Positions 22,109 through 51,250 of a DNA stretch of 64,000 nucleotides are shown here, piece by piece (position 1 is the stretch's first letter; the number at the start of each line of letters is the position of its first letter). The stretch is from positions 22,655,402 through 22,719,401 of the forward strand of contig OX424567.1 in assembly GCA_949152475.1 (NCBI GenBank). Direction: 5' to 3'. The notes beneath the pieces are model-generated. The model was not told the origin of the DNA. It did no database searches and saw only the letters and a list, made by a program, of their open reading frames with translations. The position numbers were made by a program, and so were the translations under genes. This DNA is from Terebella lapidaria (taxonomy: Eukaryota; Annelida; Polychaeta; Terebellida; Terebellidae).

Positions 22109-25100
22109 TTACAAACACATGCACATGTCAACTCGCGCGTTGATTGGCTGATTCTTCTCGTGGTCACCAACTCGCCCATCGCTCCGATTGGCCAGCTCCA
22201 AGAGCCCGGAATTCTTGACAGCTTTTACCATGCGCTCGAGCACTTTCAGCTTGATCACCTCCGGTTCGTCTTGGGTGAAATCGAGTTCGCCGAAAGACTC
22301 CGCAATCAGGTCCTGGACATTCGACATGACTCGATCAAACTCACCCTGTTTGCTCCACGATTTATTCTCGTACATGTGACCAGTGTGATTACCATACTGG
22401 TAAGCATGTGCTGGGTCAACATAGTTGTGCCCTTGGTCATCATAATGATATTGCCCATTGTAGTTGTGAGGGCAAGGACCTTGGTTCTCATGGTAGTGAT
22501 GGTGACCTCCATGGTGACCATGATGACCTCCGTGATGACCTCCATGATGGCTACCATGGTGACCTCCACGGTGACCACCTCTGTAGTGGGAGTTATAATA
22601 TTCTTGGCCAGTGTGTGGATACATCACACCAAAGTCAATGGGGATATCTTGATGCTGCATGCTACACGTCATCACTATCGGATACAAACGAGAACAAATG
22701 TACATTACAAATCTGACTACGATACCTGTTTATCAGCAACTGCAAGTTACCTATCAAATAAATGCCTTACTCGTATGTTCCCACATGGCAGCAGCGACAT
22801 GGTACATGAGCCGGCCAAGAGAGTCACCCGGATGAAGAGTCTGGTTGGTATACCACGCCTGCGCATGCGCGATTGTGACGTCATCAAGTCCGTACTCCTC
22901 GTCAAGGAAGACAGGGAACGAGAGGTACTCGAACGGCATGAGTGACAGGGCAGAGTGGATTTCCTGACGACGAGTGAAATAACAAATATTGAGTAAATGT
23001 TTAGTAAAAATATTGAGATAAATGATGAACAATTGACAATGAGCCAGGGTTGCACCTGTTTGAGGAACTGTTTGAACAGAAGCGCTGCCGTCCTGTCCTC
23101 AGGACTGAGTCGGTGTGTTAGCCTCATTATCTGACTGACGTTGGACATCATGTATATCAGTGGTCCATGATCGTGGTCATCTGGTAACAGAACATATTTA
23201 CAGTGATCCCGCAGTGTTATATCGACATTGATGTCGATGACATTTACGGCTGGTACAGCACCGAAAGTAGTTCTTATTCCATACTCACACATGTGCATGA
23301 TTAATTCGGTGTAGAGGCTCAACATTCGCCGGCCAAGAGAGTCACCGTCACGTGACTGGTGATCAAACCAATCAGAACAACGATCGTGTTCGTCGCTGCA
23401 CGTGCGCACGAACGAGCACGTCTCGTCCACAAAGTCTACGAAACTGGACCGCAAATCTTCGAATGCTTGATCAGAGGGTGACTTCTATTGGAGAAGAAAT
23501 GACCGTGAATGTAGCGAGTTTGACAGAGCCACCAAGCTGTTTCTACGTATCTACGTACGTTTGGATAAAGGCTAGATTTTCACAGTCAACGCATTATGGC
23601 ATCCAAACGCTGACCTCCATGAGGAAGTGGCCAAAGAGGGCGGCGATCTCGAACACCTCCGGTTCCTGGTAGACCATCTCCTCTAGGACATCCGACGTTC
23701 GCTCCCGCAGGTCACTCGGCAGGTGCTCAAGGAAAGAGCCGAGAGGTCCGTGCCTGAAGGTGGACAGCATGTCCGAACTGCCCTGGTACACTGACACGTC
23801 CTGGGTCTCTGGAATAGGTAGACATGGAAATTATGGTTTTAAGATCAAAAAGTCAATTGCTATCAACTGGTTATAGCGGCTTTCTCGAAACTGACTCACC
23901 TAGCACAGCGGCCACTCTGGATCGAAGGTCAACCATCCTGTGACCCAGCGAGTTAGGGTCCATCATTTGACCGTAGAACCACTGGAGTTCACTGTCGGTC
24001 ATCGAGTCGTACATCTCAACGTCGTACATCATTTCCTCCATTGTCATCGTGCTCGAACCTGCGTACTGAAAGATGATTAGGACTGATTGATATTACGTTC
24101 ATGCTCCGGAGCGAAGAAGTATACTGGCTCACATTTACATTTACATGTTTGTTCACGCACAGCTCTGTAAATGTTACAGAATGTGGAGATCATACCAGTT
24201 GTGATATTTCAATTACCCGATATAGAGTTCTCGAGTCAATCACTAATTAGTAGCATGATATTTGTTACAACACTGTCGACATGTCCCATGCTTGTTTGTC
24301 CCTTACATGTGTGAGGAACTCCTTGAAAGCCTGGGCCGCCCGCCTGTCCGCTGGATCCTGAATTAACGCGATCTCTTGGACTATAGACATGACTTCGTCC
24401 CTCAGATACTCAGGCAGGCGATCCATGTACCAGCCACTGGGGTGTGGTGTTACCATAGAAACCATCTCGGGTGGGTCTGGAGAGGTGATATATGTACATA
24501 TATGTACGTCTACCATTGTATAGATGTAGTGTGTGGAAAGTATTTAAATATAATTATTATCGATTGATGGCCCATCAAAACTATGGTTATTTTCATGTAG
24601 CTCCTATATTATTATCGGTTTACTGGAAAAGAGATTTTGAAAATTTTCAGCAAATAAACCCATCTTGCCTGGATATACTGGAGCGTGGGATGCGCTGGAG
24701 GCCTTGCTGGGGTAGGTACCGATGTCCAGATCGTCTCTGCTTGGGCGTGGACGGCGACCTGAGCCAGGAGGTGGTCGGTGCCCGGGCCCATGGGGCGGGG
24801 TTATCATTGGGTCTACCCTGCTGGACATGTGCCGTTGGCCAGGCATGGGTTCGTGGACGTAGTAGTTTGAACGATGTTCTTTGGACGAGTCCCAACCCCC
24901 ATACATTGCTATTGCATCTGCGGATTGAAATCATGATGAAGTCGTGATGAACTTGATGGTGATCATAATGCATGCGAAAGTGTTGTCATATTGGATTACA
25001 TTGAATGGGTCGCATAATTGGGTAGATATAGAAGGTTGAACGGGATGGAAATATTTAGGACATCTGATATTACATGTCACAAGTAACCGAGAGTGAAGAG

Positions 25101-28100
25101 AATCATTTTTGTGGTCAGCGGATATATGTTGGGATGGGAAAGTTTGTGTGATTTATAACCACAATTCAATGTATTAAATTGCTCATTATTTTCACACTTT
25201 ATCACTTTTATGTCGAAAACTATAAATGTTGGCTAGAATCTATCTTTCGTAATTGTTCTGCCAACATCAGATATTTAGCTCAATATTTTTGTTGCCCTAC
25301 TGTATATGCATGTGTTACGGTAAACCATCCAAAAATATCGCAAGGCTCTCAGTGTATTTGCGTTTATTCACAACATTAAAATGTTAACCTCACTGAAACA
25401 GTCAGAAATATAATTTTCGAAAGTGATGTGATCCTTTTGTTGAGATTACTATAAGGTATATTTACAACAAATGATAGCAGGACCGGGGCCGCCCATGCCT
25501 ACTCTCCGTGGATCTGTTTTTACCCAAACTTAGAAGACCAGCGCTAGCGCTGGCCAATAAGAGACCCGAATACAATAAATTATTCGTGCGTATCACCCTG
25601 GCTCGAAATATAACATTGTCATAACGTTCAACGGAGGTATTACTGACCTCGGTACGCCTTCTTCTGCAGGTAGAGCTGCCACATTCTCTGTCCTAGCGAC
25701 TCTTTGTCATACATCTGAGACTTGAGCCAACTGAGACAGACATCTATGATTCCCTGGGGTATGTGGTCTATGTAGCTGTAGTAGGCTGCCACCAAGCTGC
25801 TGTACTTCGCTATTTTGGGCTGAAACTTCCAATATATGTATTTTTATGTGTCTACTGAATAACGCATATGAATACGTTCAAACCGGTTATTTTTGGTTGT
25901 AAAATGCAATGTTTTCATGTGCAGATCCTACTGTGGTACCGGCACAGGGAACCGGCTCAAAATTTATTCGTTACAGACAAGGTTTTACGATATTATACCT
26001 CGTGTAGGAACATGCGGAATGACATCGCGGCATTTCGTTCGTTCGAGTCGAGTTCCTTGATGACTTTCAACAGTTTCATCATGCTCTTGTTATTATCCTC
26101 ATACGTGGCACCTTGACCCATGTCACCTGGAAAAGAAACTGGAACCCTTGAGGTTTTCGATTTGGACGGTTCTAATTTTGCATTTTATGATTTTCAGTTG
26201 TCACCATCAACGTCGTCAAGTATTGGTGGTGATATTTGGTCGATACATAAATATAAATATATAATCCTCATTGTGGGCACTATTGTCAGGCTGATTCAAA
26301 ATTTTCACAAGTGGCGCACTAATATAGCCTCTGGCGGGTATGTGACACCAAAAACTGTTTCACATAAGGGAAGAGATTCACTCACCGTGGATATTTCTAT
26401 GAAGTTTCAGCATCCTGTTGGCTACCGAGTCCGGATCTCGAAGCTGCTCTTTCAGCCAGTCTGCTGTTCTCGTGTGAAAAGTTTTGTTCAATGCCGTCGT
26501 GTTTAGAAACACCGTGTAGTGTGGATAGATGTCCATGAGTTCAGTAGTTGAACCGTTAAACTGTCAATGGTATTAATATGTATAATCTATTCTGGGTAGA
26601 TTATGGTATTCTGTATTTAAAAGATACATTTTGTCAGAAAATTGCGTATTATTCGTCCTTTGAAAAATCGGTCTGCTATTCATTGTAAATTTGGTTTTAC
26701 TTCGTTATTTCCGTTATGATTTCACTATTATTTTTACTTTTTATTGGAGAGTTCCGCGATTAGCTTCTGATCATTGAAAATCAATTTGAAACAATAATAA
26801 CTCAATAATACATAAATTGAATGGTGTGGGATAATAATCAATAGGTGCTCAGTTGGAAGCCATGGATGCTCAGACCAGTTGTCACCATCATTAGCAATAG
26901 TTTTTTTTTGACATTAGAGCGTTGGGGGCTTCGCCCCCAACTCTCTACATGTCTATGTGCTGACTTTTTCATGGAGGTTTCATGCCAACCTATCGACGCC
27001 CGTTTTCGCATGTAAACCTTTGTACACCTACTTCAAATGAGTATTTTCTTCGTCCTTGACATAAAATCTCTCGATTTGATGGCAAGCTTTGAATATTCCA
27101 TAGATATATAATGCATAAATTGATGTGTTCGGTTTGAGAAAATTACGCAAAATGGTCAGCTCGTCTGGAAAACGTCAAAATGGCGGAGCCGATGGAAATT
27201 CACGTTCCCAGAATGCAAAGCAAACTTTACCGCAATGACGCGTACTTTGGAACGTACAATTTTCTGTGCAGCATTTTGTGCATGCATGTACATGTAACCT
27301 TGCGTGCGGCCTTCTTTGGCGTAATGAAGTAAACACAACGATTCGTCTACGGTACCACGACTACATTTACCGTAATTGGACATATTTTATCACATGACAA
27401 GGTGTTCCATGCTCGGTTGCGAAACCTTTTTATTTTAAACTAATCTTTTAATTTGCTCAGTATGCATGTGTTATCTATATCATGATATCAGATGCAGATA
27501 TTCCTCATAGTTTCCAATATTTTAAGGATATTTTATTGAGGTTCAATATCATTTTATCAGGCGTAACTGTTTCATTGAGTTCAAAATAAATGTTTACTCA
27601 TTAGGAATATGATTGAAGTAGGCCTATGTGTTTCATCATAATATATACGGGATTGAATTGGAATCACGTGGGACATGATATGTTTCAATTTTCCTTTTTT
27701 GTAAAGGGGGGGGGGGGGTGTAAGATATATTCAGGTCTCGTGGTGCTGATGGTGTGCTCGAGCTCTAATGTCGTCCCTCGCAGTTATTATTAGAAACACA
27801 GTGGAAACACTATCATTTACCTGCATAAGGAACCATTGGAAGCGATTCGCACATGGCCACTCACGCGGCTCCAGACCCCGTAGTTCCAGCATGAGAGCTA
27901 TAGAGATATTCCATAGCTCTGCCTGAATCTCTTTTCCCCACGAATCAGGCTTGTGTTCTACAAAGGAGTCGATGAACACAGAGTCATCATGTCTTTCATG
28001 TTCATCTAATAATGTTCACGTATTAGAACCCCGTATACTTCCAAACAAGATATTACAACTTCGCACGCACTTTTTTCAATGCGGCTGCTTTGAGCCAGTT

Positions 28101-30840
28101 GCCAGATTCTCCAGCTGAGTGAGTTCTCGTAGTTATTGGACCAGAACCACGTGATGAGGCTCCTCTCCCTCTCACCAATGTCTCGTCCGAGATGTTGCTC
28201 CAACGACATACCGAGTTCCGCGTATGTCGTCGCGTTCCCCGCACATCCACACTTCGTCGGAACATAATTATATAAACACCACTGGTCTGGGATGTATTCG
28301 TGTATGCACTCACTCCGCTTGTCATCATTATTTTTAATGATAATCTTCTCTTGAAAAGGCATTGGAATTATCCTTTTGTTCGTTTTATATTGTATATACT
28401 TACACTCTTGAGGAATTTCTTGAAATCCTTAGCAGCCATTTGTTCTCTTTCTGGCAGCATCATGATTTCTTGTTTTATATGTTCTAGTTCACTCTTCATT
28501 GCACTCGTCATGTTAAAACTCATTGAATTGCCATCGTCGAAATTGCCCGCGACTGTAAAAATTTGAAGGCATTGGAAATTGTGAAACATGGAAATAGGAT
28601 CATCCACAATACCTCGCACAATCGAAACCAATTGAGCATTTATATGTGTTAACATATTGTATTTCCTATTTGATATTTTACCATCTAAGTCCATGATCTT
28701 CATGTCGACTCCGAGCATTTTGTAGGCCAGAGATTTCCTATCTTGTGATTGTTCACGCAGCCAATCGGAGTACGCGAGGTCCTGACCTGTCATGTACAGG
28801 AAATCTTCAAAGTTTGCCAATGCGTCATCCATGCTGTTCAGTCGAACGTTACTCTGTCAGGGGATAACGAATCAAGTTCACACCAAAAGTCGGCAAAACT
28901 AAGAACTAAGGGGTGTGTTACTGTGACTGGACACATTGAGTTTTTGGTATTTGTTACAATTTGACAATGAATGCAGATTTGTATATATACAAGTGTCAAT
29001 GCAATACTCTCACTGTTGTACCCGTTATCTGTATATATTATTATGTTTTAATCTGTATGGCGACAACATGCTTGTGTACCTGCATCAAAAACGACTTGAA
29101 AGCTTTGGCAGCACGCTTTTGGCTTGGACCCATCTTTCGGATTGTTTTCAAAACGCATCTGATCTCCTTGCGAATGTCGGCGGGGAGGTAGACACTGTCG
29201 GTGTCTATGCTGTCGGCAGCGAACATGTCAGAGAGCAGGTGCAAGTCTGAGTAACCATGGGAATGGTCGAGTCCACCACCGTGTCTCATACAGTCGTGAG
29301 TCAGTGTTCCAAAAGGGTCTGGGTCTTCATAGACATAGTTTGGGTCAGTAGTGTAGTATTCATAACCGTCATCAAAGACATCGTACGTCATGCCTAGTAT
29401 CTCGAATACTTTCTCTTCTATGTAAGTGTTCAGGTCATTTTCGCTCATGATTAGTCTACCCAGCTGATCGGCCAGTTTCGTGTGGAGATCGTTGTTGAAT
29501 ACATCACCCAGGTAGCCCCAGACGTCGTTCCCGTTGGAGAGGGAGAGGTTGGCATGGAGAGTCATGTTGAAGTGCACGGCAACCTCTTCTATGTAAGTTA
29601 TGATCGGACTGTCTGGCATACCAAGACTGGGGAACGCTGGGTCAAATATGGGATCGATCCATCCTCCTATGTCAGGGAAATCGATACCACCTAGGAGGTC
29701 TTCTAAAGAGAGCCCATGGGAACCGGCTATTGCTAGCATGTCCAGGATTTCATTGAAACCCCCCTTGCTAAACATATCACCAGACATGTCCCCTCCAATG
29801 AGAACTTCAAGCATCTGTTTTACAGAGGGTGGCATTCCTGACCAAGCCTGGCCGAGGTTGTCGTACGGGTACATCATGTCAAAGTAGTGGTCTTCTCCCA
29901 TATTTTCGTAATAATAGTTGTATGGATCTGAAGTAGAGTAGTAGTTGGCATAGTATGGAGAAGAATATGAATGGCCTCTGCCGTGGTTCCCAGTTTTGCT
30001 CTTGTGTCCATTCCTCTCGGGTCCATAGCCTCCTGCGGAACCATGGCCACTTTTAGAACCGTAGCCTCCTGTGGAACGGTAATCACCTGTAGAACCGTAG
30101 CTTCCAGTGGAACCATAGCTACCTGTAGAACTGTAACCCCCTGTGGAACCGTAGCCGCCTGTAGAACCGTAACCTCCAGTTGGACCATAGCCACCTGATC
30201 CATAACCAGAGTTGGTATGGTCAGATCCGTAGCCATAATTACTATGACTGGATCCGTAGCCTGAGTTGCCCTGACTACTTCCATAGCTCGTCTGACTCGG
30301 CATGATGTTAGAAAACATGTGCTCCAAGGTACTTGCCCATTCTAAAATAAGGTGATACACTTATTTGTATTAGGATGAATTGCATATGTACATGTTTGCC
30401 TGGAGGCCACAATGCAACGTGGTGTGAAACTTCCATACACTTAGTGAACCAGCGTAGCAATATTGTCGCTCAGCAACTTTCTGCTGTTATATATGTTCGA
30501 AGATTTGCAAATAATTACTGGTGAACTAATGTTACTAGCCTGGTTCTGGTGTGGGTTCGGAGTTCTTTCTAGACTTCCTGGAACTGCGAGTCTGATAGAA
30601 ACCAGTGTGAAACGCATTATACTGTTTGGGACATGATTTATTTTTGCGGTACTGTAACTATACGCTAAATAAAACATTACAATTGTAATACATACATGAT
30701 TTTCATGTGCCTTACCTCTTTCATTGAATGAATTTATTAAAGTACGTTTGCAAAAAAAATGCCAGCAACTTGCCGCGCTTTACCCTTGAAGGCTTTGCTG
30801 TGGCGAGGCCGATCAACAGCACCAACACCCAGACTCGCAT
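22109..30840 (-). CDS. Gene A: secreted Gly/Tyr-rich protein with helical repeats (~1457 aa)
   Basis: Seventeen exons are predicted on the minus strand: 30784-30840, 29080-30291, 28682-28853, 28404-28552, 28071-28317, 27821-28005, 26386-26560, 25999-26126, 25648-25819, 24720-24917, 24307-24476, 23900-24065, 23615-23808, 23289-23484, 23056-23249, 22771-22963 and 22109-22674. The first encodes a signal peptide (MRVWVLVLLIGLATA). Exon 2 is Gly/Tyr/Ser-rich (YGSTGG units) and ends in a helical segment. Then come seven two-exon units: the first half (phase 0 to 1) has a W-(L/F) core and SLG-x-RM, the second half (1 to 0) ends AA-x-x-F-(K)-x-FL. A Pro-rich exon (24720-24917) is inserted in unit 4. 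The last exon is His/Gly-rich and ends MCMCL. The exon 2 acceptor is uncertain: the stronger-looking site at 30342 breaks frame with exon 1, the one at 30292 keeps it; a missed small exon is the alternative. The 28071-28317 acceptor is weak. The family is unrecognised; an extracellular structural role is inferred. Confidence 0.75.
22490..22595 (-). repeat. His-Gly repeat tract in gene A
   Basis: Codons for GGHH, GSHH and GHHGG motifs repeat in the last exon. Such tracts commonly bind transition metals or promote self-assembly in matrix proteins; here that is inference. Confidence 0.8.
25090..25500 (+). repeat. Dispersed repeat copy 1, in a gene A intron
   Basis: Matches 43137-43890 in reverse complement through several blocks (GTTGGGATGGGAAAGTTTGT, AATTGTTCTGCCAACATCAG, TATTTGCGTTTATTCA, GGGCGGCCCCGGTCC on the opposite strand). 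Copy 2 carries about 280 extra bases. Element type is unknown. Confidence 0.75.
26921..26941. repeat. Perfect 9-base-stem hairpin in a gene A intron
   Basis: GTTGGGGGC, a TTC loop and GCCCCCAAC follow a run of T. It is probably the end of a dispersed repeat rather than a gene-specific signal. Confidence 0.6.
26961..27820. other. Long gene A intron, no exon seen
   Basis: Intron between the exon ending at 27821 and the exon beginning at 26560. It includes a G run at 27703-27718 and AT-rich DNA. No open frame with matching phases was found. Confidence 0.4.
30010..30290 (-). repeat. Gly-Tyr-Gly-Ser tandem repeats in gene A exon 2
   Basis: About 24-27 base units encode GGYGSTGGYGS-like motifs, with variants YSS, SYGS, DYRS. 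The repeat encodes a flexible Gly/Tyr-rich region just after the signal peptide. Confidence 0.85.
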
Positions 30841-31722: not shown

Positions 31723-34700
31723 ATGGAACATCTTGGTGTGCTCGTGTGCGTTCTAATCGGATTCAACTCTGTGGTCAGTGATTCACACCATCTGATTCTT
31801 CCTAAACACCATCTACGTTTAATATTGTATCTCCATTTATCATATCCCTTCACATATTGTGATCGTATAACTTTTATTGACATTCCCAACAGGATGCCTA
31901 CGGATGGGAAAGCTATCTGGGTAACACTGGCTACTTTGGTGGACACCAAGGCTTGGGGGATACTGGTCACTATGGTTATGGTGACTTAGGCCTTGGCGCA
32001 ATGGGCTATGGTGGGATGGGACATGGCTATGGTGGGATGGGGTACGGCTACGGCGGCGGTATGGATGGATGGGGTGATATGATGGGAGGAGGTATGGGTG
32101 GAATGGGCGGCATGGGTGGTGGAATGGGCGGCATGGGTGGTGGAATGGGTAGTATGGGAGGTGGAATGGGCGGCATGGGAAGCGGTATGGGTGGTATGGG
32201 AGGTGGAATGGGCGGCATGGGAGGCGGTATGGGTGGTATGGGAGGTGGAATGGGCGGCGATAGTCAAGCCGGAAGTTTACAACAAGGAAATCCTCTCAAA
32301 ATGCAGATACCATATGGTAAGAACACATGTTTTCACTGTTGTCATTTCACGTCATGTAGATATTTAAAAGAACTAACTGAAAACTAACTGAAAACACCAG
32401 ACCTGAGACAAATTGATCCCTTAAAGGATGTGATGTGTCACTCCTTACCGTTAAGGGTTATTGGTGCCCTAACATAATCAGCACATTTTTCAGTGGTTGT
32501 GGAGTAAACATATTGACCATATTGGTTAATGATACATGATGTCTTGTTTTGATGCACCGGAAATCTCAGACTTGTCATGAGCTGTCTCGGATGTCCCAGG
32601 GCTATGCTAACAACTAGTTTGAGAATCGTCCATCCGACTATAACAATACCTTGCATTCTTTAAATCAATTTTTCTCATGAGAAAGGAGCACTGAGATATG
32701 GTAATCTGTACAATCATGTTCATGACTGATCATTTAGAGAAACATCTCGTCATTCATTGTTTCAGAAATGCTACAAGACCCCGATTACAGAGAAAATTTC
32801 GTGGACATGGCCTTGGAAATGTTGGAGGATATGGGATACGTGGGACTTACTGCCGAAGACATCTCGTTATCCCTTGGCACCGTTCTCCCTAGCTCTGACA
32901 GTTATGGTTCGTTTATCACCCTGATCTCTTGTGGGTGTTTTCATTCGAGTTCATATTTACTCTTTGGATTGAAAGAATCGCTTACTTTCTATCTCTTAAT
33001 CGCTTACTTGTAGAACAAACATATGAATTTATTATTCGAACACGTACAAATATGTATAACTATGAAGAATGTCCATAAAATATCACTGCATATAAAACTT
33101 GCATACTAGACATTTTGCCTTTAAACGCGGTAATTCGACGGTTAGAACATCCACACACGCCATTACACACAACGCTCCCTCAACTCCATTACTCCAGCAC
33201 TTCTTTAACACCAATACACATTGAGCCAGAGCCTCCACCTCACTTATTGCCATATTTTTTTTATAATGTGGTGCGGCACATCGCATCCATTTTTGGTTTT
33301 TCGTGTCCGGTAAGAGTTGAGGTGGCATGCCCTATATAATACATACTTTTCATGTGGTTACACTTAATCTATGAAAATAATAAAATGAGTAAACTGAATT
33401 CCTAATGGAAGTATGCTATGTGCCGCTGAAGAATGACCATTGACATTGATTTAAAGGGGCATTGTTTTTTTATATTTTGTACCTATAGCAACCGTATTTT
33501 TTCACCACAAAGCCCCAGGTGTGCGCACCAAACGCTAGTACACTGGTACAAGCATCGTAATGCGCATGCATTCAACAACATTGCTCATTTCGTGTATGCG
33601 TCAATATGCCTCGCAATTTTGGCCCCAGTGTATCAGCATCTAGAAGACATCGTGTTCATCGACTATGACGCATCGACGTTGACGTGCTCAAAATCCTAAC
33701 TTATGTACAAGAATATGTTTGATGTATATTGTAGAAACTGAACATGTACTTCCAAATAGTTTCTGTCACTCAGCTGTGTCCATTTTTCCTGGACGAACGT
33801 GAACTCCAGCACGAAACATTACCACACCGGACACCCCTTTGGATAATGAGTCTGGTCCACGTGCTGCAGTGTTTCGATAGCAACATACCGCGGCTCGAAA
33901 TACAGCGTTGAAAGGCAAAATGTCTACTAGGGTGATTTCGGGCAGGTTTATAATAATGACCAATACACAACTCATTATAACCCCTCACACCATTTGCCCC
34001 GTGACGAAATCAGTGTTCCCACAAGCAATACTACAGAATTCCATAATAATTTTACGAACTGTGATTAGTCCGTGAGGACTGTCCTATAGTATCACTAGAA
34101 TGGACGACGACGCCAGATGCTGGCAACTGTACAACAGCTTGTCGCAGATGAGCTAAGAAAAATGGAGGAAATTTAGTTCGCCGTTATATGTAATTGATTA
34201 TGTAGCTAATTGGTCTAATACTTATGGTTTGGTGCATCAGTGCCTGGTATGCCTGGAGCAGAACCATACTATGTACCTGGACAACACATCCCTGGTTCGT
34301 CATATACCCCTGGCTCGTCCAATGGACACATGGCACCTGACAATTACGGTTCAATGGGTAGGTGTTCTTGAATCTGATTATAACCTGATAATATTTCGTG
34401 TGCATTGGTAACAATGTATTATGATATAGCTCTATACAGTTCATTGTCAACCTGATGACATGAAATGCTAACCATAATTCACATTCAAAATATGCACTAT
34501 TTCTATATTCACATCAACTTTATGGTGTACACTTGCATTTGACAGTGGATTTCTTCGATGAATTTGCGGAGAATGGGCAGGACTGGTCTGCGTATGCGGA
34601 ACAGTGGCTGAGTGCCTTCGCTGGTCCTTCTGATAACGAACTGGAGAAGATCCTCACCATGCAGAAAATTCTGGCCCTTGCTAGACACACGGGAGCCATG

Positions 34701-34769
34701 GACGGCCTCTCCCACAACGTGACCAGCTCCAATGGCTCTGGCACTATGAAGATGTGTTTGTGTCTCTAG
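31723..34769 (+). CDS. Gene B: secreted Met/Gly-rich protein (318 aa)
   Basis: Exons 31723-31773, 31893-32316, 32766-32906, 34241-34357 and 34546-34769 join in frame (phases 0, 1, 1, 1) to 957 bases. The signal peptide is MEHLGVLVCVLIGFNSV; an acceptor 8 bases upstream explains the start. Exon 2 opens DAYGWESYLG and becomes a GMGG/GGMG repeat of about 60 residues. Exon 3 encodes a helical module with DPDYRENF and EMLEDMGY, matching modules of C and D. Exon 4 is Pro/Gly/Tyr-rich (VPGMPG, IPGSSYTPGS). Exon 5 encodes the family C-terminal domain (FFDEFAENG, QWLSAF, ILALARHTGAM) ending KMCLCL. Its upstream neighbour A is divergent and C lies downstream on the same strand. I know no named homologue. 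An extracellular structural protein is the best guess. Confidence 0.85.
32085..32262 (+). repeat. Met-Gly tandem repeat in gene B exon 2
   Basis: Imperfect 21-42 base units encode GMGGMGGGMGG. The reverse frame and the +1 frame are also open across it, a by-product of the repeat. Confidence 0.9.
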
Positions 34770-38079: not shown

Positions 38080-39290
38080 GAGGGTGGTTTTTTCCCTTCA
38101 AAATGATGTATTACTGACGCCGATAAAATTAATGACTGTTGGGTAATACTGTACAGAAGTGCGATATCGTTTTCACCCCAAATCGTAGATTCCAGCCAGT
38201 AAGAATGGCAATTAGCGCAACAATTCGGACTGTGACCCCATATTTCTTTGGTTTTATTTGTAAGGGTAGTTTTTCCCCTTAAAATGGTGTATTACTCACC
38301 CCGACAAAATTGATGATTGTTGGGTAATACTGTACAGAAATGCGATATATATACTCGTTTTTCCCCTGAATCGTAGGTCCCGGTAAATAAAAATGCCAAT
38401 TAGCGCAACAATTCAGACCGTGAACCCATATTTTCTTGGTGTTATATGTAAGGGTAATTTTTCTCTTCAAAATGATGTATCACTCATCCTTATAAAACTG
38501 GTCGTTGTTGGGTGATACTGTACAGAAGTGCGATATATACTTGTACTTCCCCTAAATCATAGATTCCGATAATTAAAATGGCAATTAGCGCAATAATTCG
38601 GGCGGTGACCCCATATTTTTTTGGTTTTATATGTAAGGGTGGTTTTTTCCCTTCCAAATGCTGTATTACTCACGCCGATAAAATTGATAACTGTCGGTAA
38701 TACTGTACAGAAGTGCGATATATTCTCGTTTTTCCCCTAAATCGTAGATTTCGGCAAGTAAAAATGGCAATTAGCGCAACAATTCGGACGGTGACCCAAT
38801 ATTGTTTTGGTTTTATATGTAGGGGTAGTTTTCTACCTTCAAAATGATGTATTACTCATGCCGATAAAATTGATAACTGTTCGGTAATACTGTATAGAAG
38901 TGGGATATATTCTCGTTTTTCCCCTAAATCGTAGATTTCTGCAAGTGAAAATGGCAATTAGCGCAACAATTCGGACGGTTACCCAATATTTTTTTGGTTT
39001 TATATGTAAGGGTAGTTTTCTACCTTCAAAATGATGTATTACTCATGGCGATAAAATTGATAACTGTTCGGTTATTCTGTACAGAAGTGCGATATATTTT
39101 TGCTTTTCCCGTAAATCGTAGATTTCTGCAAGTAAAAATGGCAATTAGCGCAACAATTCGGACGGTGACCCAAATTTTTTTTGGTTTTATATGTAAGGGT
39201 AGTTTTCTACCTTCAAAATGATGTATTACTCATGTCGATAAAATTGACGATTGTCCGGTAATACTGTATATAAGTGCGATGTACTTGTAT
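38080..39290 (+). repeat. Satellite-like array, about 6.5 copies of a ~187-base unit
   Basis: AAAATGATGTATTACTCA-type words recur at about 38099, 38280, 38468, 38656, 38839, 39026 and 39216, that is every 181-190 bases. Shared blocks are TGGCAATTAGCGCAACAATT, CGGTGACCC and GGTTTTATATGTAAGGGT. Later copies resemble one another more than earlier ones do. Confidence 0.9.
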
Positions 39291-40720: not shown

Positions 40721-41389
40721 TACATGCTTAGATCGTACGCACAGCTTGAAACTACGACTTGGTTTGAGCATAAATTCCGATTCAGCTAAATAGACTCTGA
40801 AATGGGCAGGGGCTCTGATTTGATGAAATTCGAGGAGGTGTGTTCCGACTTTCGGGTGTCATGCCGCCGATCTCTCCCCTTATCGATTCCAATTAAGCCC
40901 CCAAATTAGGCCCACGCAGTACGGTCCGATTATTTCCAATACATTGGTGAACCGTTCCTATTGCAATATACGGATACGCTCCATTAACAGCATGGGAAAT
41001 AATATCTTAGGTATTATCTCGTATTCCACATGAGAGATAACATGACAAGATCCGAAGGTATCGTCCTATAATTGGATATTCAATATCTCGTCAATGACAT
41101 TCTGCCTGGTCACATATATCACGTGCTTTTGAAACGGTTGACAATTAGACAATTAGTAGATTCCTCATCTGGAACCGACTTCAATGCCTGTCGATTTGTG
41201 GGTTTCGTGAAGGGTATTTAGCTTATGTTGCATCAGTTTGACAGGATTTACAGCTATATATTAAAACATTCTTACATTCATGGTAAGTGCGCTAATTTAC
41301 AGCATATTTTGATATCGCCTATATCATAATTTGCGACAAACATCAACACATAACAATCGTATAAATGTTTATTATATTCATTCAGAACT

Positions 41390-44300
41390 ATGGCAGGGTG
41401 GTGGATACCTGTTGTTTGTTTCCTTTTGGCTTTCCATAGTGGAAATGGGATAAGTGTGGTAGGTATTAAAACGGAAGATGTGCAAATTCGCGGTGATAGA
41501 TATGACTGAAATGCTTGCCAATCACATTATACGTGTATCTGATACCGATAACGTGTTATTGGAGTTCACTTTCACCCTATTTATTTAACTGAGCAATACA
41601 CACAATTGACAAAATTAATCGTCATGGCCGAAGTGTTCAGAGACAAAAGCGGCCCATATGTGATATTTCAAACAGACAGGAAGCGGGACTTCCTGGGATT
41701 CGTACATGGGGGATAACGACCCCTGGTACAACTACATGGGGCTGAGCTATGGGTACGGTCACTATGGTCCTGATGGGTATAGCCCAGGATGGGCTTACTA
41801 TGATGAATCCAATGAAGACGATGGTCTGACGCCAGGGGCGAGTGCGGAAGAGAGTTCCGAGACTGGTCAGAATGCGCCCTCGCCTGGGAACCAGGTGGAT
41901 AATGATGATGTTAATGACGACAACTGGAATAACACAATCGACTCTATCGTAGAGAACAACCCAGCAATAAACGTGGACGTAGCTGGTAAGTTCAGTCTGC
42001 TTGTTGGTGTAGTTTGAACAGACTCATTACTAATTTTGTGTTGGAATAAAGTACTTGTTAGGGTGTATAAACTGTTTTTATGGAGGGAATTACTGACAGG
42101 AATTGAAAATCAGTCGAGCAAGTTGATATAATCATGACCTGACACCCAAATATCCGGCAATAACCATAAATTCCATTTCCAACCATTTGGGAAAATCGGC
42201 AAAATCGAAGAAACTTTGTGGCTTGCTTAACACGTCGGAATTAAAATTGATTGCGGGCAATGATTATATTGCGCGATAAATATGTGAACCAATCATGTAT
42301 GGTGTCTCATACTGCAATGAAAACTGCCGGATCTAATACATGAAAAAAAGATATCTGATTCACGATTAGTTGAAAATTCGTGCAATATAATTTCATTTTT
42401 AATGTGCACACGTTGAAAATACTTCTGACCGTTTCGGCCAGCCATAAATCCACTTGGGTAGGGCAGGTGATCTACTGTGAACTGATATTTGGAAGCTTTG
42501 AATGATCCGCCGATTGCCGATTTTCCCTAATGGTTGGAAATGGAATTTATCCAGCCATGATAGCTCAATTGGTTAGGGCGTCAGGGTTGAGTGCGGGAGG
42601 TACCGGGTTCAATCCTTGGCGCCGGCGCTGAAAGACTTGCATTGGGGGATCTGTTTCACCCATCAGTAAAATGGGTACCTGGCTATAGACAGAGATGGCA
42701 ATGTGTATGAATACTGTATATATGTGCACCAGAGATGGTTGCCTAAGTTACAGCTGTATGCCTCCCGGGAGGTTGAAAATGTGTCGGAATGAGCAGGTCT
42801 GCCAGGGGTAATAATTGTAAAGCGCTTTGAGCATGTGGTACATGGAAAAGCGCTATATAAAAATGCAATTATTATTATTATTATTATTATTATCCGAAAA
42901 ACTACTTAGGTATTGATAATGTCAGAGAAAAAATAGATTGAATACCAATACTTGCTTTGATGTAATAACCCATCACGGCTACTACAACAAAATTTCGATG
43001 ATAACAATAGAAACCCAACATCACCTTTTCGAAAAAGAAACAAAACCTAAATAAACAAACATATATTGTTCAATGTGAGTAGATTCTCAATCAGTGATAT
43101 TACATTTTTCAACACCCCTCCAGGGTAATACATCTGAGACCCACGGAGGGTAAGCATGGGCGGCCCCGGTCCGAAGAAATAATATTTCTGATCGTTTCAA
43201 TGAGGTTTTTACATTTTAATCTAATGAATAAACGCAAATACTGTGAGAGCTTTGCGATATATGTTTGGACCACGGGGGTCAAGCGTACCTGAAGTAGTCA
43301 GAGGAATATTGACGCTCCTGAATTATTGGGAATGAGAGCGTGTGTAGGTATCAATCTATTACCACAAATACTTTTGATATCAACGTCATGGTGGAGCCAA
43401 ATATTGTAAGGTAGGCTGCAAAGAAACCATGAGGAACTCGCCTACGATGTGTTTGCAGGCAAAGCACTGTCAAAATTTCCGGGAAACATTAGCACAAAAT
43501 ACATGGAAAAAGCCGACGATGTTGGTTTAAGGTAATACATACGCATACAGTAGCAAAACAAAAATATCGAGCTAAATTCCTGATGTTGGCAGAACAATTA
43601 CAGAAGGGTGCCAACTTTTATAGTTTCCGACATAAAAATGATCAAATGTGATGAAAAAGATGGTTTTTTACACCAAAATAGACGCATAAACTATCGATTT
43701 CAACCAAATTATTGGGCAACATCAAATCTATTGAAGGTCTGATCTCGGATATAGATCTATAGATATGTTGTCCTTTGTTGATATGGAGAATAGTGAGCTA
43801 TTTGATCTATTGAATTACGGTTATTAATCACACAAACTTTCCCATCCCAACATATTTCCGCTAGCCACAAAAATAATTCTATTCACTGTAGGTTACTTTT
43901 ATATAGTAATTTCTGCTTTTACCGTTCAGAACTGATGAAGTCACCGAAGTACATGGAAAGGCTGCAGGATATATATGCTGATCTTCAGGCCTCAGGAGTA
44001 ACAAACATGACTCCCGAAGGTGCGTTCCGTGACTGATATTTCACACTGGGTAAGCGGATCATAACGTTCGGGCATATTTTTGTTGATAAATTGCAAAACA
44101 TGCTGATTTATTGATCGGGATATGTTTCATCCGGATCTCCCAAGCACACCCTCACACAGGTTGGACAGAAATTGGTGTGATTATAGACATATTGAAAGAT
44201 AAAGACAAAAAACTGAAAATAGAGGTTTTTTGTTTGTTGTGTGCAACATCTTCAATTAAAATCAATATTGTCCATTTGATTAACTGTGGGATAATAGTGT

Positions 44301-45692
44301 GGTCCGGATGAACCATGCCTGAATTATATATCTCCATATTTCAGCCAGATAAACCATAAAATATAAGCGAACGTTGTGATTCGCTTACCCCCTAATGTGT
44401 ATTTTATAAATTCAAAATATTTCTGAAGGCAAGATACTTTTTATTTTATTTAGGCGAGAGATTACTCGAAACACATAATAATAGTACGCCCAATTATGCA
44501 GTTAAATGTACACAGTTTAAGTGTTCTGACTCATATTGATATGCCACTATCTGGATTCGAAAACAAAACGGCCGTCAAAATTGAGTATTTTTGTTGAAAA
44601 CTGAAATCCATCTCGAGGCATTTTAGTATTTTGTCCAAACAATAAGAGAGTTTGGATCGCAGATTTGGAAACAAAATTGACGGACGCCGGCGGTATTGAA
44701 TGTAAAGACTAACCAATAGATAAGCAAACTACATATACATACATGTCCCTTAACCGAAGAAGGAGAAGGCGCCACATGATTGTTGATAGAGAGAGTACAT
44801 CAGTTGTCTGGTGGTAAATTGCATCTCTTCCCTCTCTGGCCAGGTCTGCTCAGCCACCCTGAGATCGGCCCCAGGATGCTGGAGTTGGTTCTGGACATCA
44901 TGCGGGATATGGGTCACCCTGAGGAAAACATAATGATGATGCGAGAGTACTTCCAGGGCGGTAACCACCCCGGTGAGCACCTCCATTTCAAATTGTTGCA
45001 AATGATTTCTATAGTCTAGAACATCATTATATAAATTGGCTAATGATAAACGAGCAACGTCGATGGATAGTGCAGTTCAAAAGTGATTGGAGTACATTGT
45101 ACTCATTATTACAAATATTATTTGTAGACAAATAATCATATAAACGATACGAAAGAGGTACTAGCAAATTATGAAAAATTAAAAAAAAAGAACAATATGA
45201 AATTTGTAGACCTCATGGCTGGTCTGCTTGCGGGTAGCGCGACAATTCCTACCGGCCAGTCCCCAATTGTTCCGGCGGAACCTGAGGTCATTTCGTCCGA
45301 GCAATCCTCGGCATCTGATGACGACTCGATGGCCGGCCCTCCCGCTTCTCTCAGTAAATAGCTATGTTGTTGTGTAGGTCTATTGTCTATATAACCGTAT
45401 TTTCCTGGGTCAGTTCCGGTCACCACCGATAGCATAACATATCGTCTTTTTATCACCAACAGGCGACTTTTTCAACAATCTGGCAGACAACGGGGAGGAA
45501 TGGCGCGAGTTTTTCGACCAATGGGAGGCAGATCCGCGCGTGAGCGTCCCTAGCAACGCCGAGCTGGACAAGCTAACGGCTATCAACAAGGTCCTCGCCC
45601 TGGCCAGACATACGGGCGTCATGGAGGGGATTTCCCACAGCGTAACTTCCAACCAGAGTGGCGGATCCATGCAGATGTGTCTCTGCATCTGA
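41390..45692 (+). CDS. Gene C: secreted acidic/Tyr-rich family protein (323 aa)
   Basis: Exons 41390-41458, 41676-41985, 43930-44019, 44844-44972, 45210-45353 and 45463-45692 join in frame (phases 0, 1, 1, 1, 1) to 972 bases. The signal peptide is MAGWWIPVVCFLLAFHSGNG; an acceptor (CATTCAG) just before the ATG implies a non-coding first exon, perhaps ending at the GTAAGT near 41283. Exon 2 is Tyr/Gly-rich then acidic (DNDPWYNYMGL, EEDD-type stretches). The 90-base exon 3 (KSPKYMERL) and 129-base exon 4 (SHPEIGPRM, LDIMRDMGH) are helical modules of exactly the lengths found in gene D. Exon 5 is a Ser/Pro/acidic spacer. Exon 6 is the family C-terminal domain (FFDQWEADP, LALARHTGVM) ending QMCLCI. 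Long introns contain a SINE and dispersed repeats. Function is unknown; likely secreted matrix. Confidence 0.85.
42167..42549. repeat. 36-base inverted repeat pair in a gene C intron
   Basis: Arms 42167-42202 and 42514-42549 (inner words CATTTCCAACCATT and AATGGTTGGAAATG) are inverted with about one or two mismatches and 311 bases between them. They may be the ends of a small MITE. The right arm abuts the SINE that follows. Confidence 0.7.
42550..42893 (+). mobile_element. tRNA-derived SINE
   Basis: The head has RNA polymerase III box A (TAGCTCAATTGG) and box B (GGGTTCAATCC) at tRNA-like spacing. The body ends in AAGCGCTTTGAG and GCGCTATATAAAA, followed by an ATT repeat (42868-42893). This tail is typical of widespread metazoan SINEs; it may be a MetaSINE, recalled from the literature and not verified. 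No clear target duplication is visible. Confidence 0.85.
43137..43890 (-). repeat. Dispersed repeat copy 2, in a gene C intron
   Basis: Reverse complement of 25090-25500 with about 280 extra bases near 43265-43545; the extra part includes the ATCAATCTATTACC repeat (43345-43370). The sequence ends 40 bases before exon 3 of gene C. Confidence 0.75.
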
Positions 45693-47494
45693 AACCCCCA
45701 CATATCTCAAACACCAATATCATTGGTTTGACTATCAGCCGCTTATATTCAATTGATCGTATAAACCGTGCCTTTTATCAAATTGTACACTATTTCTATG
45801 GAATTTTTATGTCACATTTTCTTAATATACCCCGTGTCGGACTTAATATCCTTCTGAGATATCAAAACGTTACGCATACATATGTTTCATGATCTTTTTG
45901 TCATACATAATAAAACCGTTGCACTTACAATATATATATACATCTTTGCAGTTCAGATCAAGCCACAAGTTATAAAAGTATAAAACTATTCGAAGTGATA
46001 TTATACGTGAAGCATAACTCACGCAAAATATTTTATTTCAATACATGGAAGCACCGATAATGGCTTACAAAACACGAACCAGAATACTCTGTTGAAATAT
46101 ATCATACTTTGGAGCACTATGATGGCGTATCTACCCTGCTGCTACAATCTTAAAACAACCAAAGTACAGTCTTCAAATTCGTTAGTCTGTTGTCGGGCAC
46201 TGTATGCTGCATGTAATTTCCTCGGGTGCACAGTATAAACAACCTCTCAACCCCACCCCAGATGACGAGTCATTTTGGGTGTTTAGTTGTCATAATAAAA
46301 ATCGTGCAGAATTGTGTTAATACATGCATCCATCACCTTATATCCCTCAAACTTATATATCAATTTCATAAAATCAAAATATCGAATTGTACAGGTATTA
46401 AAATCCGGTTCCATTTCTGCTGAATCTCTTCACGTAGATAGTCAGGAAGAAACCTGCTTGGTCATCCAACATGCATGATTTACCTGGAATGTATATGCAA
46501 ATACACACGACTAAGTACTACTGTGGGATTATTTTGAAATCCGCTTTTCAAATAAGCAATTCTTCATTCAGTTGGTAAAACAAGTTAGTTCGATATAACA
46601 ATGACATTGACTTGTAAATCCCATGAAAATATAAAGAGTAACAAATATCAAACTTTCATTTGATCCAAATCTGCTACATTGCAAACATCACAAGAACATA
46701 TAGTGTTTATGAGCAAAACCGGAGTGCTTTCTGCATTCATTTGAAAATTAGTATTTCTCCATTTATATATATGGAACAAGCCCTTATATATATATCATTC
46801 GCTGAAAAAACCTGAATATCATTGAACATGTTGTTGTTATGTTTTGACATCCATTTACTTTGCGGAGATGACCAGGTCGACATCCAATACATGTGTGCAC
46901 TAGTAGTTACCCATAATACAGATATGATATCCAATTGATCGATTTCTTGGATGTCAATATATGTGGGATAAGTAAAACTAACGCAATCAATGCGAATCAC
47001 CCGTTATTCTTTCAGTGATTTATGTTAGGTTTCAGTCAAATAATAATTTGAAGGTCAAACACCCAGACGTTCAACCAGAAACTTAAGGATTTTAACGTCA
47101 GGATCCATTCCATCAACAGTATAAAAGGATAAGGATCCCCAAGACTCAAATGACATAAACCTCTCCACAATTCATATAAAGTCTAGTTGTCGATATAATA
47201 TCCATGCCACCTATTAATTCAGGTTTATTTAAATTCAGATGAAGTTATCATGTCCAGGTGAATAACAAAATGCAGATGGATACACATTGTAAAATGATTG
47301 CCTTGTTTCCTCAAAACGTGTATATCACTACCTCAATTGAATAATCATGTTCAATCTGTGAATTCCCATGACTCACGCAAGCACAGTGACGATGACATTA
47401 AAAGCAACACAGAATTTATTAATTCAACTGCATGACGCAATAGGCAATATTTAGTTCACAACTACATGTTCCGATACATTGCATGTTTTTAACA
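45693..47494. other. 3' ends of convergent genes C and D
   Basis: AATAAA at 45909-45914 serves gene C (217 bases past its stop) and the minus-strand AATAAA at 47415-47420 serves gene D (about 75 bases past its stop). The AT-rich 1.5 kb between has no coding signal. Confidence 0.55.
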
Positions 47495-50400
47495 TTAGAT
47501 ACAGAGGCACATTTGCGTAGCTCCGTTGTTGTCGTTGGCTGTGATACTATGGGACACCTCGTCCACGATGGCGCCAGTGTTCCTAGCCAGGGCCAAAACC
47601 GTCTGGATCACAAACAGCTTGTCCAGCTCCTTGTTGCTGGGAACACTGACAGCTGGATCCGAGGCCCACTGGTCGAAAAACTCCCGCCAATCGTCTCGTT
47701 TGTTTTGTGCTATTTCTCCGAAGTAGCTCGCTGAAAATTCCCCACGGAGGATCTTATAAAACGGATCATCAAACGTTGGCACGGCAAAACATATTAATAA
47801 GTAGTAAGTTGTTATAGATTGGAGTTCCGTATACCACATGATACCCAATTACACCCTGTGTAGCACAGACCACACAATACATACGAATCTGGAATATATT
47901 CTACTCACTTAAGAGTGTTGACTGTTCTGCCGTGTTTGCGGCGCCGTTGTCTCCACCACCATCTGTAATCGGATCGCTGTACCCAGAGCTCCCGTCAACG
48001 CCCATCATGTTGCTCAGCGCCACTGGATAAACAAATAATGGAAATCGAACACCTCAGCTTGTGTGATATTTGTTATCCACATTACCAACAGTACTTCATA
48101 TTTGATCTCTTCAATGTTTGGTGTCAGGGAAGAAATTATTTTTGTGAGTCATTGCAAATAATTCCGCCATCGACTGTCTTTCGACACATACGAAATTATA
48201 TTACTGTCGTTTTTACACGACATGTTAATATGGTTTCATCATGCTAGTTGGCGAAAAATCAATCGTTCATCAGACATTTGGGATAATTTCCATAAAGTCC
48301 AGTCATGTACACCGAATGTGGCGACTTACCAATATCCATACCGTTGGCGAAACCTTGCCGAAAAGCTTCCACGACATCCGGCCCATACCCAAGATCAACC
48401 AATATGTCCAGAATGATGCTGTTCATCTCCCTCCCGTACACGGGATGGGTCTGGATCTCTGTGACATGACACAACACCCAGATATATTTGTAGTCACAAT
48501 ATTCAGTTGTCCCCTCGACATGCTTATTATATATATTTTATTTGAATAATATACATTATACACAGCTGTAGTTATATTATCTTTTTTTTGCATCAAAAAC
48601 CGAAAGAAGGAAGGGCATAGAATGGCATACTTGTAACAAATATCACGGGTAGTTGTACTGAGTCCATCTAAGAGGAAATAATTAGCTTTCGTTGAGTACT
48701 AATACCTGCTGGTCCTAAGGCCTCATTCCCGTCTGCCATCATTTGGTCAGCCAGAGCAATCATCCTCTCCATATATTTAGGTGTCTTGATCATTTCTATA
48801 AACCAACGAGAGTACTAAATCTCGCATCGAATAATGTAGTGAGTGAATAATGAATATGTGATGTGATGGGACATTCAATGCTCTGAGGTGTATTGTCCCG
48901 TGTTGTCAAAGGACCGACAGTTGGGAGTGGAAACACGTAGGGAAACCCTGAAATAGAGATACAACTGTTGAACCAAACACTTTCTCCAAATCAAAGTGTA
49001 TCCTAATCAACATCTCACCATAGACAGATGCCACCAGGCCCTGTGGAGGATGCTTTGCTGCAGCCAACTTGTTTATGAGCCGGCCCCATTCATCGTCACT
49101 ATACGGGGCATCGTTACCATGGTTACTCTCAGCACTGTCGTCCCCAACAACTACAACAAAATATATTGTTGATATACTAACAGCAACTGTATTACCAGGG
49201 TATCACGAACGCCCCTTATTTGTGAAGCTTGGGTTTACATTAATCTCGAGAAGCAACGCCATATCATATTGTCGCGTTAAACGTATTTCAGCTTTGAGGA
49301 AAATGTAGATGGGTTCACGTTGCGCCTGCGAGGCAATGACAATGTCATATCAGAACCTAAATGTACCTCTAGCCTTATTATTTCCTTGTTCCATGCTGTC
49401 ATCTTTATCCCGAGTGGTTGATCCTTCGTGGCTGGCGCTGTAGTAGTAGTGCTGGTTGTTTCCTTCGTACGGTCCCTGATCCTGAAAGTAGGGTCAAAGT
49501 TCTATCAATCCTTGCAACAGTATTGCATCCTAAATCCACAGATCCTTCTCTAAACGTGTGCTGTTGAAAAACGCACGTGTTGCGCTTCGATATACTTTAT
49601 TAGGGGATTTCCACAGGACTACCATAAATCCGATTTGCGGTGCGGGAGAAACGCATATAAACTTATAACACCTATCGTATTCATTTCAACTTTGTCGATA
49701 ACGGAGTTATACAAAATGTACTCACTTGGCCAGGTAGAGCGTTGGGGCCATTGATTGCCGCAAACGCAATCGACGCTGATCAAAAATAAATATTCACATT
49801 CGTAGAAATTGGAGGAAATGACAATAATCGCAAACGTTCAAGTGATTCGGCTAGTTTGATTTCTCCCAACTTCAGAATGATTCACACATCCGGTGTGATT
49901 TCAATACGTACAGAAACGTTGCCGAATGATCCGTTTATAGGGAAATCCACAAACCATATCGCACATGCGTTCATGTATGTCTCCATGTATAAGTTATTTA
50001 CTTGTTATCAATGAATTCCGGGATATTTCGAGGAAATCCCGTAAACTCAAATGTAGAACCTCAGAGGTACGGAAGAAAACGCTTAATATGTCAGTTTGCG
50101 GGCCGGTAACATACATGCCAAAATTTACTTACCCAAATCTTCGCCCCGCTCAAAGCCTTGCCTAAACAACTCAACAACATCCTCGTGGTACCCGAGATCG
50201 ACAAGAATATCAAGCACCATCTTCTCAAGCTCCTTGCGATACACTGGATCCGTCACAATCGCTGAAAAAGATGTTCAAATAAAATTGTCACTTCCCGGCC
50301 AACATACATTTGGATGGGCCGCGTTGTGAATGGCGCCAAACACTCGAATATAAGATCAGGGGTTTTAATAATATCCGGGATATCTGCCCGCAACTGTCAT

Positions 50401-51250
50401 TGATGGCCCGCGAGCGTTGGCGAGTGCATTACTGACAGTGAAGGACATGTATTGAACAAAGTAGGGACTTCCAACAGGTGGATATTCTATCCATCTTACA
50501 AAATCACGTTATTAATAAATTTGTTTGAATATATTATTAGTGCATGGATGGTATTTAACAAAGTAGGGACTTCAAACTTATATATTACCCATCCTACAAA
50601 ATCGCGTTCATAATAATCAAATGTGTTTGCATATAATATTAGTGAGTGAATGGTAACAGATCATTTAATGCAGTTAACCTTCAGCACTAATGCCTCCATT
50701 CCCGTCTGCTATTATTCGTTCTGCCAACATCTGTACTCTTGTCACGTACACAGGTGACTCCATAGATTCTGTGGCGGTACAAAAAAACCAAAACGATCAA
50801 TATGCAGATAATTTAAAAGGTATATGGAGAGTGTTACACCCGTTACTCATGTAATATGAAACCGTCAAGCGATGAATGTTAGGGTATTCTGCAGGTCATA
50901 TCCTCAAGAGGTATGTAATCAACAGCAACGTCCAAATATGGTATGAGTACCTCTAATTACCAAAAAAATAATATTTTACGAGTTCATTCTTTACAACGAT
51001 GTTCGTACCCAAAATCCCATCTAATAGATCCTGAACCGAGTAGTCCGAAAAATCAACGGTTGCGCCATCGCCACCGTATGCTTTGTGCTTGAAACATAAC
51101 CACCATCATTCCGTGAAACCGTGGATAAAATGCTAATAAACTTCACACGATTGTTCAGTATGTTCATCGTAACAATACATCGCTACTTACCACGTGCGAA
51201 ATCTGGATGATGCCCAGGATACACATTAACATACACGTGTTTGGCAACAT
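47495..51250 (-). CDS. Gene D: secreted family protein with duplicated modules (407 aa)
   Basis: Eleven exons on the minus strand (51191-51250, 51009-51087, 50679-50768, 50133-50261, 49726-49775, 49367-49481, 49019-49150, 48706-48795, 48330-48458, 47909-48022, 47495-47730) join exactly to 1224 bases. The signal exon (MLPNTCMLMCILGIIQIS) starts 4 bases after an acceptor. Two module sets follow. Set 1: YSVQDLLDGILG, a 90-base module (ESPVYVTRV) and a 129-base module (DPVYRKELEKM, LDILVDLGYHEDV). Set 2: DEWGRLINKLA, 90 bases (KTPKYMERM) and 129 bases (HPVYGREMNSI, LDILVDLGYGPDV). Between them exon 49726-49775 (ASIAFAAINGPNALPGQ) ends in phase 0, as signal exons do in this family. The last exon is the family domain (EFFDQWASDP, VLALARNTG) ending QMCLCI. 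It is convergent with gene C. No known homologue recalled. Confidence 0.85.

Follow-up and report, generated by a model that had tools for sequence, protein, structure and literature searches.

Predicted secreted proteins with a common C-terminal domain encoded in a gene cluster of Terebella lapidaria

Introduction

Do four adjacent genes in the genome of the annelid Terebella lapidaria make up one family of secreted proteins without named relatives, and what could such proteins be used for? The genes, designated A to D, occupy positions 22109-51250 of a stretch of 64,000 nucleotides (nt), which is referred to as the window and corresponds to positions 22655402-22719401 of the 37-megabase (Mb) contig OX424567.1 (assembly GCA_949152475.1; genome of 762 Mb in 438 contigs). 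A first-pass annotation had described all four genes as members of a single unrecognised family built on one plan. The gene models were rebuilt here from the raw sequence and every exon join was tested by script. B, C and D are well-formed genes with constrained coding sequence and constitute a well supported family, unmatched so far; the family should be counted as three genes plus one possible member, gene A, and not as four.

Results

The coding sequences of B, C and D close to exact multiples of three (957, 972 and 1224 nt, respectively), as had been claimed, and every intron of these genes has GT-AG borders. The frame needed for translation was open in 34 of the 34 internal and last exons tested (4 in B, 5 in C, 10 in D and 15 in A, from exon 3 onward), while both other frames were closed in 26 of them. 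At an assumed 5.5% of stops per codon the chance of finding all of them open would be approx. 10^-49, a value that serves as a guide only because the exons had been picked for openness. Nine codon comparisons were made; in all six with a computable synonymous divergence (dS) the nonsynonymous divergence (dN) was the lower one, dS being not computable in the other three, and the third codon position carried the most differences in 9/9 pairs (jointly the most in one). The stop codon is followed by an AATAAA at a distance of 177 nt in A, 167 nt in B, 216 nt in C and 74 nt in D. Genes A (minus strand) and B (plus strand) are placed head to head, their ATG starts being 883 nt apart (30840 and 31723), and a control region common to the two is possible. 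Genes C and D are arranged tail to tail.

The plan ascribed to the four genes comprised an acceptor site just before the ATG, a signal exon ending in phase 0, a low-complexity second exon, helical modules in phase 1 and a last exon ending in MCxC(I/L)-stop. The ending was found in all four. In B, C and D a signal-like first exon ends in phase 0, the second exon runs from phase 0 to 1 and the module exons are of the 1-1 type. The sole departure from these phases is found in D, where exon 5 leaves and exon 6 enters in phase 0; thus exons 6-11 of D repeat a gene layout minus the signal exon. Low complexity of the second exon is evident in B (Gly makes up 27% and Met 11% of the gene B product, which has regular repeats) and in A and partial in C, but exon 2 of D is short and only mildly biased. 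Signal-like first exons, judged by eye, make secretion of the products of all four genes likely.

The acceptor upstream of the ATG was scored with a weight matrix, for which 32 internal acceptors from the same gene models served as the training set. Of the 3142 ATGs of the window, 2.9%, 1.9% and 1.0% matched the score of B, C and D, respectively, which is above chance, whereas 18.9% score as well as the site of gene A, which is the chance level. In a simple search of 2500 nt, no upstream TATA box followed by a strong donor was found. In gene C, a TATA-like word 30 nt ahead of the ATG argues against an upstream exon; the acceptor before the ATG is therefore a pattern and not a proof of a 5' intron or of leader splicing.

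B, C and D (3/3) each encode a domain of about 75 residues in one last exon, which is entered in phase 1. Identity to the last exon of C amounts to 60% for D and 49% for B, and 26 columns are invariant among the three, including W...QW, LALAR, TG and MCLC. The dN and dS values were 0.31 and 1.52 for the C-D pair and 0.47 and 4.0 for the B-D pair, and were not computable for B-C. Apart from the signal exon, which holds one cysteine in B and C and two in D, each of these proteins has two cysteines only, both in the tail. B, C and D carry both motifs by which the domain had been defined, W-x-x-(F/Y)-x-(D/E)-QW and LALAR-x-TG, and A has neither.

B has a single module exon, of 141 nt. In C there is one pair of module exons (90 and 129 nt), and in D a pair of these sizes occurs twice (90, 129, 90 and 129 nt). 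A Pro at alignment position 6 and a Gly at position 24 are invariant in 7/7 of these modules, which are 13-60% identical to the first module of the alignment. Exons 4 and 9 of D encode the same residue at 26 of 42 codons, and their dN is 0.37, compared with 0.60-0.92 for the other five module pairs; the 90/129-nt exon pair may be read as having been multiplied by exon-pair duplication. Hydrophobic periodicity of the helical type (100 degrees) in 24 segments (seven a and seven b half-modules of gene A, seven B-D modules and three C-terminal domains) gave a combined p of 2e-6, flattering since the segments are interrelated, and 0.72 at 170 degrees. The phase-1 helical modules of the first-pass annotation are thus borne out for B-D as regards phase, their helicity being indicated by periodicity only; the modules of A are two-exon units.

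The modules resemble the STI1/HOP-type helical 'DP' repeats, short helices beginning at a proline. Unlike with such repeats, there was no corresponding Pfam match and the proteins carrying the modules are predicted to be secreted. The likeness is probably a matter of chance. When the P-helix-G modules were compared with the second half of the C-terminal domain, the scores of four modules were reached by 8, 16, 46 and 86 of 500 shuffles and the other three modules were unremarkable; the modules are not shown to be copies of this half-domain.

Gene A, on the minus strand, has 16 exons beyond a putative exon 1. Its exons 3-16 are mostly alternating half-modules of two kinds, a and b, seven of each when the first b at the end of exon 2 is counted. 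The a exons run from phase 0 to 1 with invariant Trp and Ser, and the b exons from phase 1 to 0 with invariant Ala, Phe and Phe-Leu. The module of A accordingly spans two exons, the first running from phase 1 to 0 and the second from 0 to 1, and is not a single 1-1 exon. The GC donor of exon 10 is the single non-GT donor among all modelled joins. Exons 1 and 2 do not join in frame (phase 0 at the end of exon 1, phase 1 required by exon 2), and no convincing candidate was found for an extra exon bridging the two. Gene A hence shares the general layout and, with MCMCL, the ending, but neither a closed start nor modules of the B-D type.

Whether A belongs to the family depends on its similarity to the other three genes, and here a strong competitor has to be considered: that the family consists of B, C and D alone, that A is an unrelated modular secreted neighbour and that its MCxC ending is due to coincidence or convergence. 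With the ending included, the scores of A against the C-terminal domains of B, C and D were reached by only 2, 4 and 9 of 1000 shuffles, which speaks for kinship, as do the common locus, the head-to-head position with B and the similar general plan. A weak match of the last exon of A to exons 2-3 of D (score reached by 21 of 2000 shuffles; four pairs were tried, one of them without A, and this was the best) points in the same direction. However, the tail region of A is 15% identical to C, and without the last five residues the scores were reached by 19, 34 and 44 of 1000 shuffles. The modules of A found no convincing counterpart in B-D by profile or shuffles either (best match of the a-modules E 0.034, probability 1.5%, over 14 columns), and the exon 1/exon 2 frame fails. 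Separate origins of A and B-D are in our judgement a serious possibility that falls somewhat short of an even chance. What stands of the claim of one four-gene family is that A has the locus, the general plan and the MCxC tail; beyond the tail its similarity is marginal. We consider A a credible gene, a neighbour of the same style as B-D and possibly a distant member. A likeness seen by eye between the W...Q...DP...SL...RM unit of A and the W...FFDQW domain of B-D failed both in profile comparison and in shuffles, and was rejected.

The description of the family as unrecognised holds for B, C and D. None of the four proteins matched a Pfam family above its cut-off, and the best Pfam matches of B, C and D were not below an expectation value (E) of 0.07. 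Searches against the sequences of solved structures gave best E values of 0.041 for the profile of the C-terminal domain (a designed protein), 0.04 for the B-D modules and 0.49 for a stretch of A, none of them convincing. In a database of 5.8 billion proteins, 0 of 7784 candidates for the D protein and 0 of 153 candidates for the C-terminal profile were found at E<=1; this search depends on shared five-residue words and would miss fast-evolving relatives. As a positive control, a repeat-like open frame of the window obtained 147 relatives among 8000 candidates scored, and the best 120 of the 147 included proteins of Solemya velum, Patella caerulea, Haliotis asinina and Pinctada imbricata, thus the database does hold animal (molluscan) proteins. 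Pattern searches of viral and of bacterial-archaeal genome collections returned 221 and 228 matches, respectively, none of which was confirmed. Among the matches listed, literature searches with the letters of the tail and motifs returned only unrelated ones and topic searches no paper on the B-C-D family, which is not proof that none exists.

Within the genome of T. lapidaria itself, the domain of C was found in at least three places, namely C, D and B, and the whole D protein in at least 12 places at E<=1, these being ten D exons and the last exons of C and B. Profile searches for further copies within the window gave next-best E values of 0.14 for a, 3 for b, 1.4 for c and 1 for the C-terminal domain, comparable to those of the reversed controls (best E 0.11, 3.3, 0.041 and 2, respectively). 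Candidates for an additional member in the 10-kilobase flanks (E 0.43 at 5.9 bits and E 0.071 at 8.8 bits) were chance-like and were discarded. The right flank holds an open frame of 134 residues, repetitive by eye (stretch L017, 1004-1408, minus strand).

These searches placed the C-terminal domain in no known family of Pfam, the PDB sequences or the protein database. It might nevertheless belong to a known domain family from which it has diverged too far for sequence methods, since the profile contained three sequences only and fast evolution may mask homology. With no Pfam match of B, C or D below the value given above and a designed protein as the best PDB hit, we regard this as unlikely, though not to be neglected.

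Table 1. Exons of genes A-D. Positions refer to the window; all phases are those of the rebuilt gene models.
Feature	Position	Strand	Description
Gene A exon 1, putative	30784..30840	-	signal-like peptide; reaches exon 2 only via an unseen small exon or another site
Gene A exon 2	29080..30341	-	Gly-Tyr-Ser-Thr repeats, ~280 ordinary residues (by eye), first b half-module at end; start uncertain
Gene A exon 3	28682..28853	-	a half-module
Gene A exon 4	28404..28552	-	b half-module
Gene A exon 5	28071..28281	-	a half-module; start uncertain, 28281 or 28251
Gene A exon 6	27821..28005	-	b half-module
Gene A exon 7	26386..26560	-	a half-module; start 26560, not 26512
Gene A exon 8	25999..26126	-	b half-module
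Gene A exon 9	25648..25819	-	a half-module
Gene A exon 10	24669..24917	-	Pro/His-rich insert, phase 1-1, GC donor
Gene A exon 11	24307..24476	-	b half-module
Gene A exon 12	23900..24065	-	a half-module
Gene A exon 13	23615..23808	-	b half-module
Gene A exon 14	23289..23484	-	a half-module
Gene A exon 15	23056..23180	-	b half-module
Gene A exon 16	22771..22963	-	a half-module
Gene A exon 17	22109..22674	-	Gly/His-rich repeat, then C-terminal region ending MCMCL
Gene B	31723-34769	+	5 exons, 318 residues, 957 nt coding
Gene B exon 1	31723..31773	+	signal-like peptide, phase 0 end; acceptor 7 nt before ATG
Gene B exon 2	31893..32316	+	low complexity, Gly/Met/Tyr-rich; tandem repeat 32097-32258
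Gene B exon 3	32766..32906	+	helical-type module (P...G), phase 1-1, 141 nt
Gene B exon 4	34241..34357	+	linker rich in Pro/Gly/Ser/Tyr, phase 1-1
Gene B exon 5	34546..34769	+	C-terminal domain, ends MCLCL
Gene C	41390-45692	+	6 exons, 323 residues, 972 nt coding
Gene C exon 1	41390..41458	+	signal-like peptide, phase 0 end; acceptor 4 nt before ATG
Gene C exon 2	41676..41985	+	Gly/Tyr-rich, then Asp/Asn/Ser-rich
Gene C exon 3	43930..44019	+	module exon, 90 nt
Gene C exon 4	44844..44972	+	module exon, 129 nt
Gene C exon 5	45210..45353	+	linker, phase 1-1
Gene C exon 6	45463..45692	+	C-terminal domain, ends MCLCI
Gene D	51250-47495	-	11 exons, 407 residues, 1224 nt coding
Gene D exon 1	51191..51250	-	signal-like peptide, phase 0 end; acceptor 4 nt before ATG
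Gene D exon 2	51009..51087	-	short, mild compositional bias
Gene D exon 3	50679..50768	-	90-nt module exon, copy 1
Gene D exon 4	50133..50261	-	129-nt module exon, copy 1
Gene D exon 5	49726..49775	-	linker, phase 1 to 0
Gene D exon 6	49367..49481	-	polar/Tyr-rich, phase 0 to 1, resembles a second exon 2
Gene D exon 7	49019..49150	-	linker, phase 1-1
Gene D exon 8	48706..48795	-	90-nt module exon, copy 2
Gene D exon 9	48330..48458	-	129-nt module exon, copy 2
Gene D exon 10	47909..48022	-	linker
Gene D exon 11	47495..47730	-	C-terminal domain, ends MCLCI

An intron of gene C contains a sequence resembling a short interspersed nuclear element (approx. 42560-42900, plus strand) with a transfer RNA-like B box and an ATT-repeat tail, both recognised by eye. 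Outside the cluster, long open frames of 350 and 1131 residues at 2702-3754 and 4271-7663 (plus strand) have the character of a repeat-like element. The latter, which served as the positive control, has a DUF6589 match below threshold, and its closest named relative among the best 120 of the 147 is from Solemya velum (64% identical); such elements spread between species. The open frame at 8826-9317 (minus strand), which by eye begins like a signal peptide, matches a PAN/apple domain below threshold (E 0.0033). Another, of 282 codons at 20190-21038 (minus strand), has no match in Pfam and contains what looks by eye like one membrane-spanning stretch. Tandem arrays are located at 38081-39280 (unit of ~187 bases), 61244-62256 (~41), 16446-16671 (~22) and 18519-18797 (~134). 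No transfer RNA gene was found in the window in a scan run with the bacterial code, nor was any Rfam family. A genome search with the molluscan haemocyanin domain also remained without a match, which is no proof of absence, since the control gave a signal in none of 14 genomes.

Discussion

The explanation we prefer is that B, C and D form a local, lineage-restricted family of secreted structural proteins of the extracellular space and that their larger neighbour A, built to the same design, is perhaps a distant member; we would give this explanation about an even chance. We infer the structural role in an extracellular material from composition alone. In the mechanism proposed, exon 1 likely directs the chain to export, and the flexible part rich in Gly, Tyr, Met and Ser would provide an extensible, sticky or phase-separating segment. 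The modules, as the periodicity suggests, may be short amphipathic helices that pack within or between chains, built on 'P - helix - G' units in B-D and on Trp/Gln and Ala-Phe-Phe-Leu units in A, and their number would be altered through exon-pair duplication. Finally, the C-terminal domain of about 75 residues would join chains, with the CxC tail acting as an inter-chain disulfide or a metal site. This last step is modelled on the chain-tying C-terminal domains of silk proteins, as an analogy of mechanism and not of membership. Shell, periostracum, tube, adhesive, egg capsule and cuticle are candidate materials.

The general kind of such proteins is known, and it is the C-terminal arrangement that is unusual. 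In the major ampullate and flagelliform spidroins a conserved cysteine joins two chains (PMC10578117). Like spidroins, B-D are predicted to be secreted and combine a repetitive low-complexity region with a conserved C-terminal domain, which is helical in spidroins and in B-D has periodicity only. Unlike in spidroins, where the cysteine is situated on a central helix, the cysteines of B-D are at the very end (CxC) and the repeats are joined to single-exon modules of helical type; no spidroin-domain Pfam match was found for A-D up to E 10. A near-C-terminal cysteine of the silkworm fibroin heavy chain, Cys-c20, is bonded to Cys-172 of the light chain (PMC11144906). The heavy chain resembles B-D as a secreted chain with a cysteine close to the C-terminus, linked to a partner in the case of fibroin. 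However, A-D gave no fibroin Pfam match, the B-D proteins are short, and no light chain is known for them. Molluscan mantle secretomes are described as containing lineage-restricted, fast-evolving, modular, low-complexity secreted families such as shematrins and KRMPs (PMC4897951). The products of A-D may be of a similar kind, the low complexity being evident for B and A, partial for C and weak for D, but no sequence relative of D or of the C-terminal domain was found at E<=1 in the search of 5.8 billion proteins.

Several observations weigh against a structural family of this composition. B and A have a long low-complexity part but D a short one, and that of C leans towards the acidic rather than the silk-like. 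Constraint on the module exons is weak, with a dN of 0.60-0.92 for five of the six pairs compared, and the single periodicity segments are mostly not significant. No known structural family was matched in the Pfam and PDB-sequence searches, the membership of A appears marginal, and metal binding or pairing inside a single chain would be equally conceivable for the CxC tail.

A part of these data would also fit a different use of B, C and D, as secreted but non-structural, fast-evolving soluble factors (reproductive or seminal, mucus, or immune), in which the low-complexity exon is incidental. The fast divergence (identity of 13-60% to the first module of the alignment and of 49-60% to the last exon of C), the single small local cluster with no relatives found and the scarcity of low-complexity sequence in D are in line with such factors. 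On the other hand, the Gly- and Met-rich repeats of B and the Gly-Tyr and Gly-His repeats of A are unusual for soluble factors, and only two non-signal cysteines in B-D do not resemble typical disulfide-rich secreted factors; we consider a soluble role improbable, but still a rival to be reckoned with. A reading of the loci as gene copies that have decayed or are not expressed, as the start of gene A that does not close might suggest, is very improbable given the open frames, the intact splice sites of B-D and a dN below dS wherever measurable.

Returning to the structural reading, a bolder version may be put forward, which we hold to be doubtful: the locus would encode an independently evolved silk-like or adhesive system, in which a new helical C-terminal clamp is closed by the CxC, helical exon pairs serve as countable links and the large A organises the small B, C and D. 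With its small size (~75 residues) and its single coding exon, the C-terminal domain lends itself to direct bench tests of its fold, of its dimerisation and of what the CxC does. If the structural reading is true, the locus adds a protein domain that has no Pfam entry, and it would represent a compact case of a lineage building new extracellular materials, in which the end domain is conserved, the low-complexity middle varies and the duplication of exon pairs sets the length of the chain.

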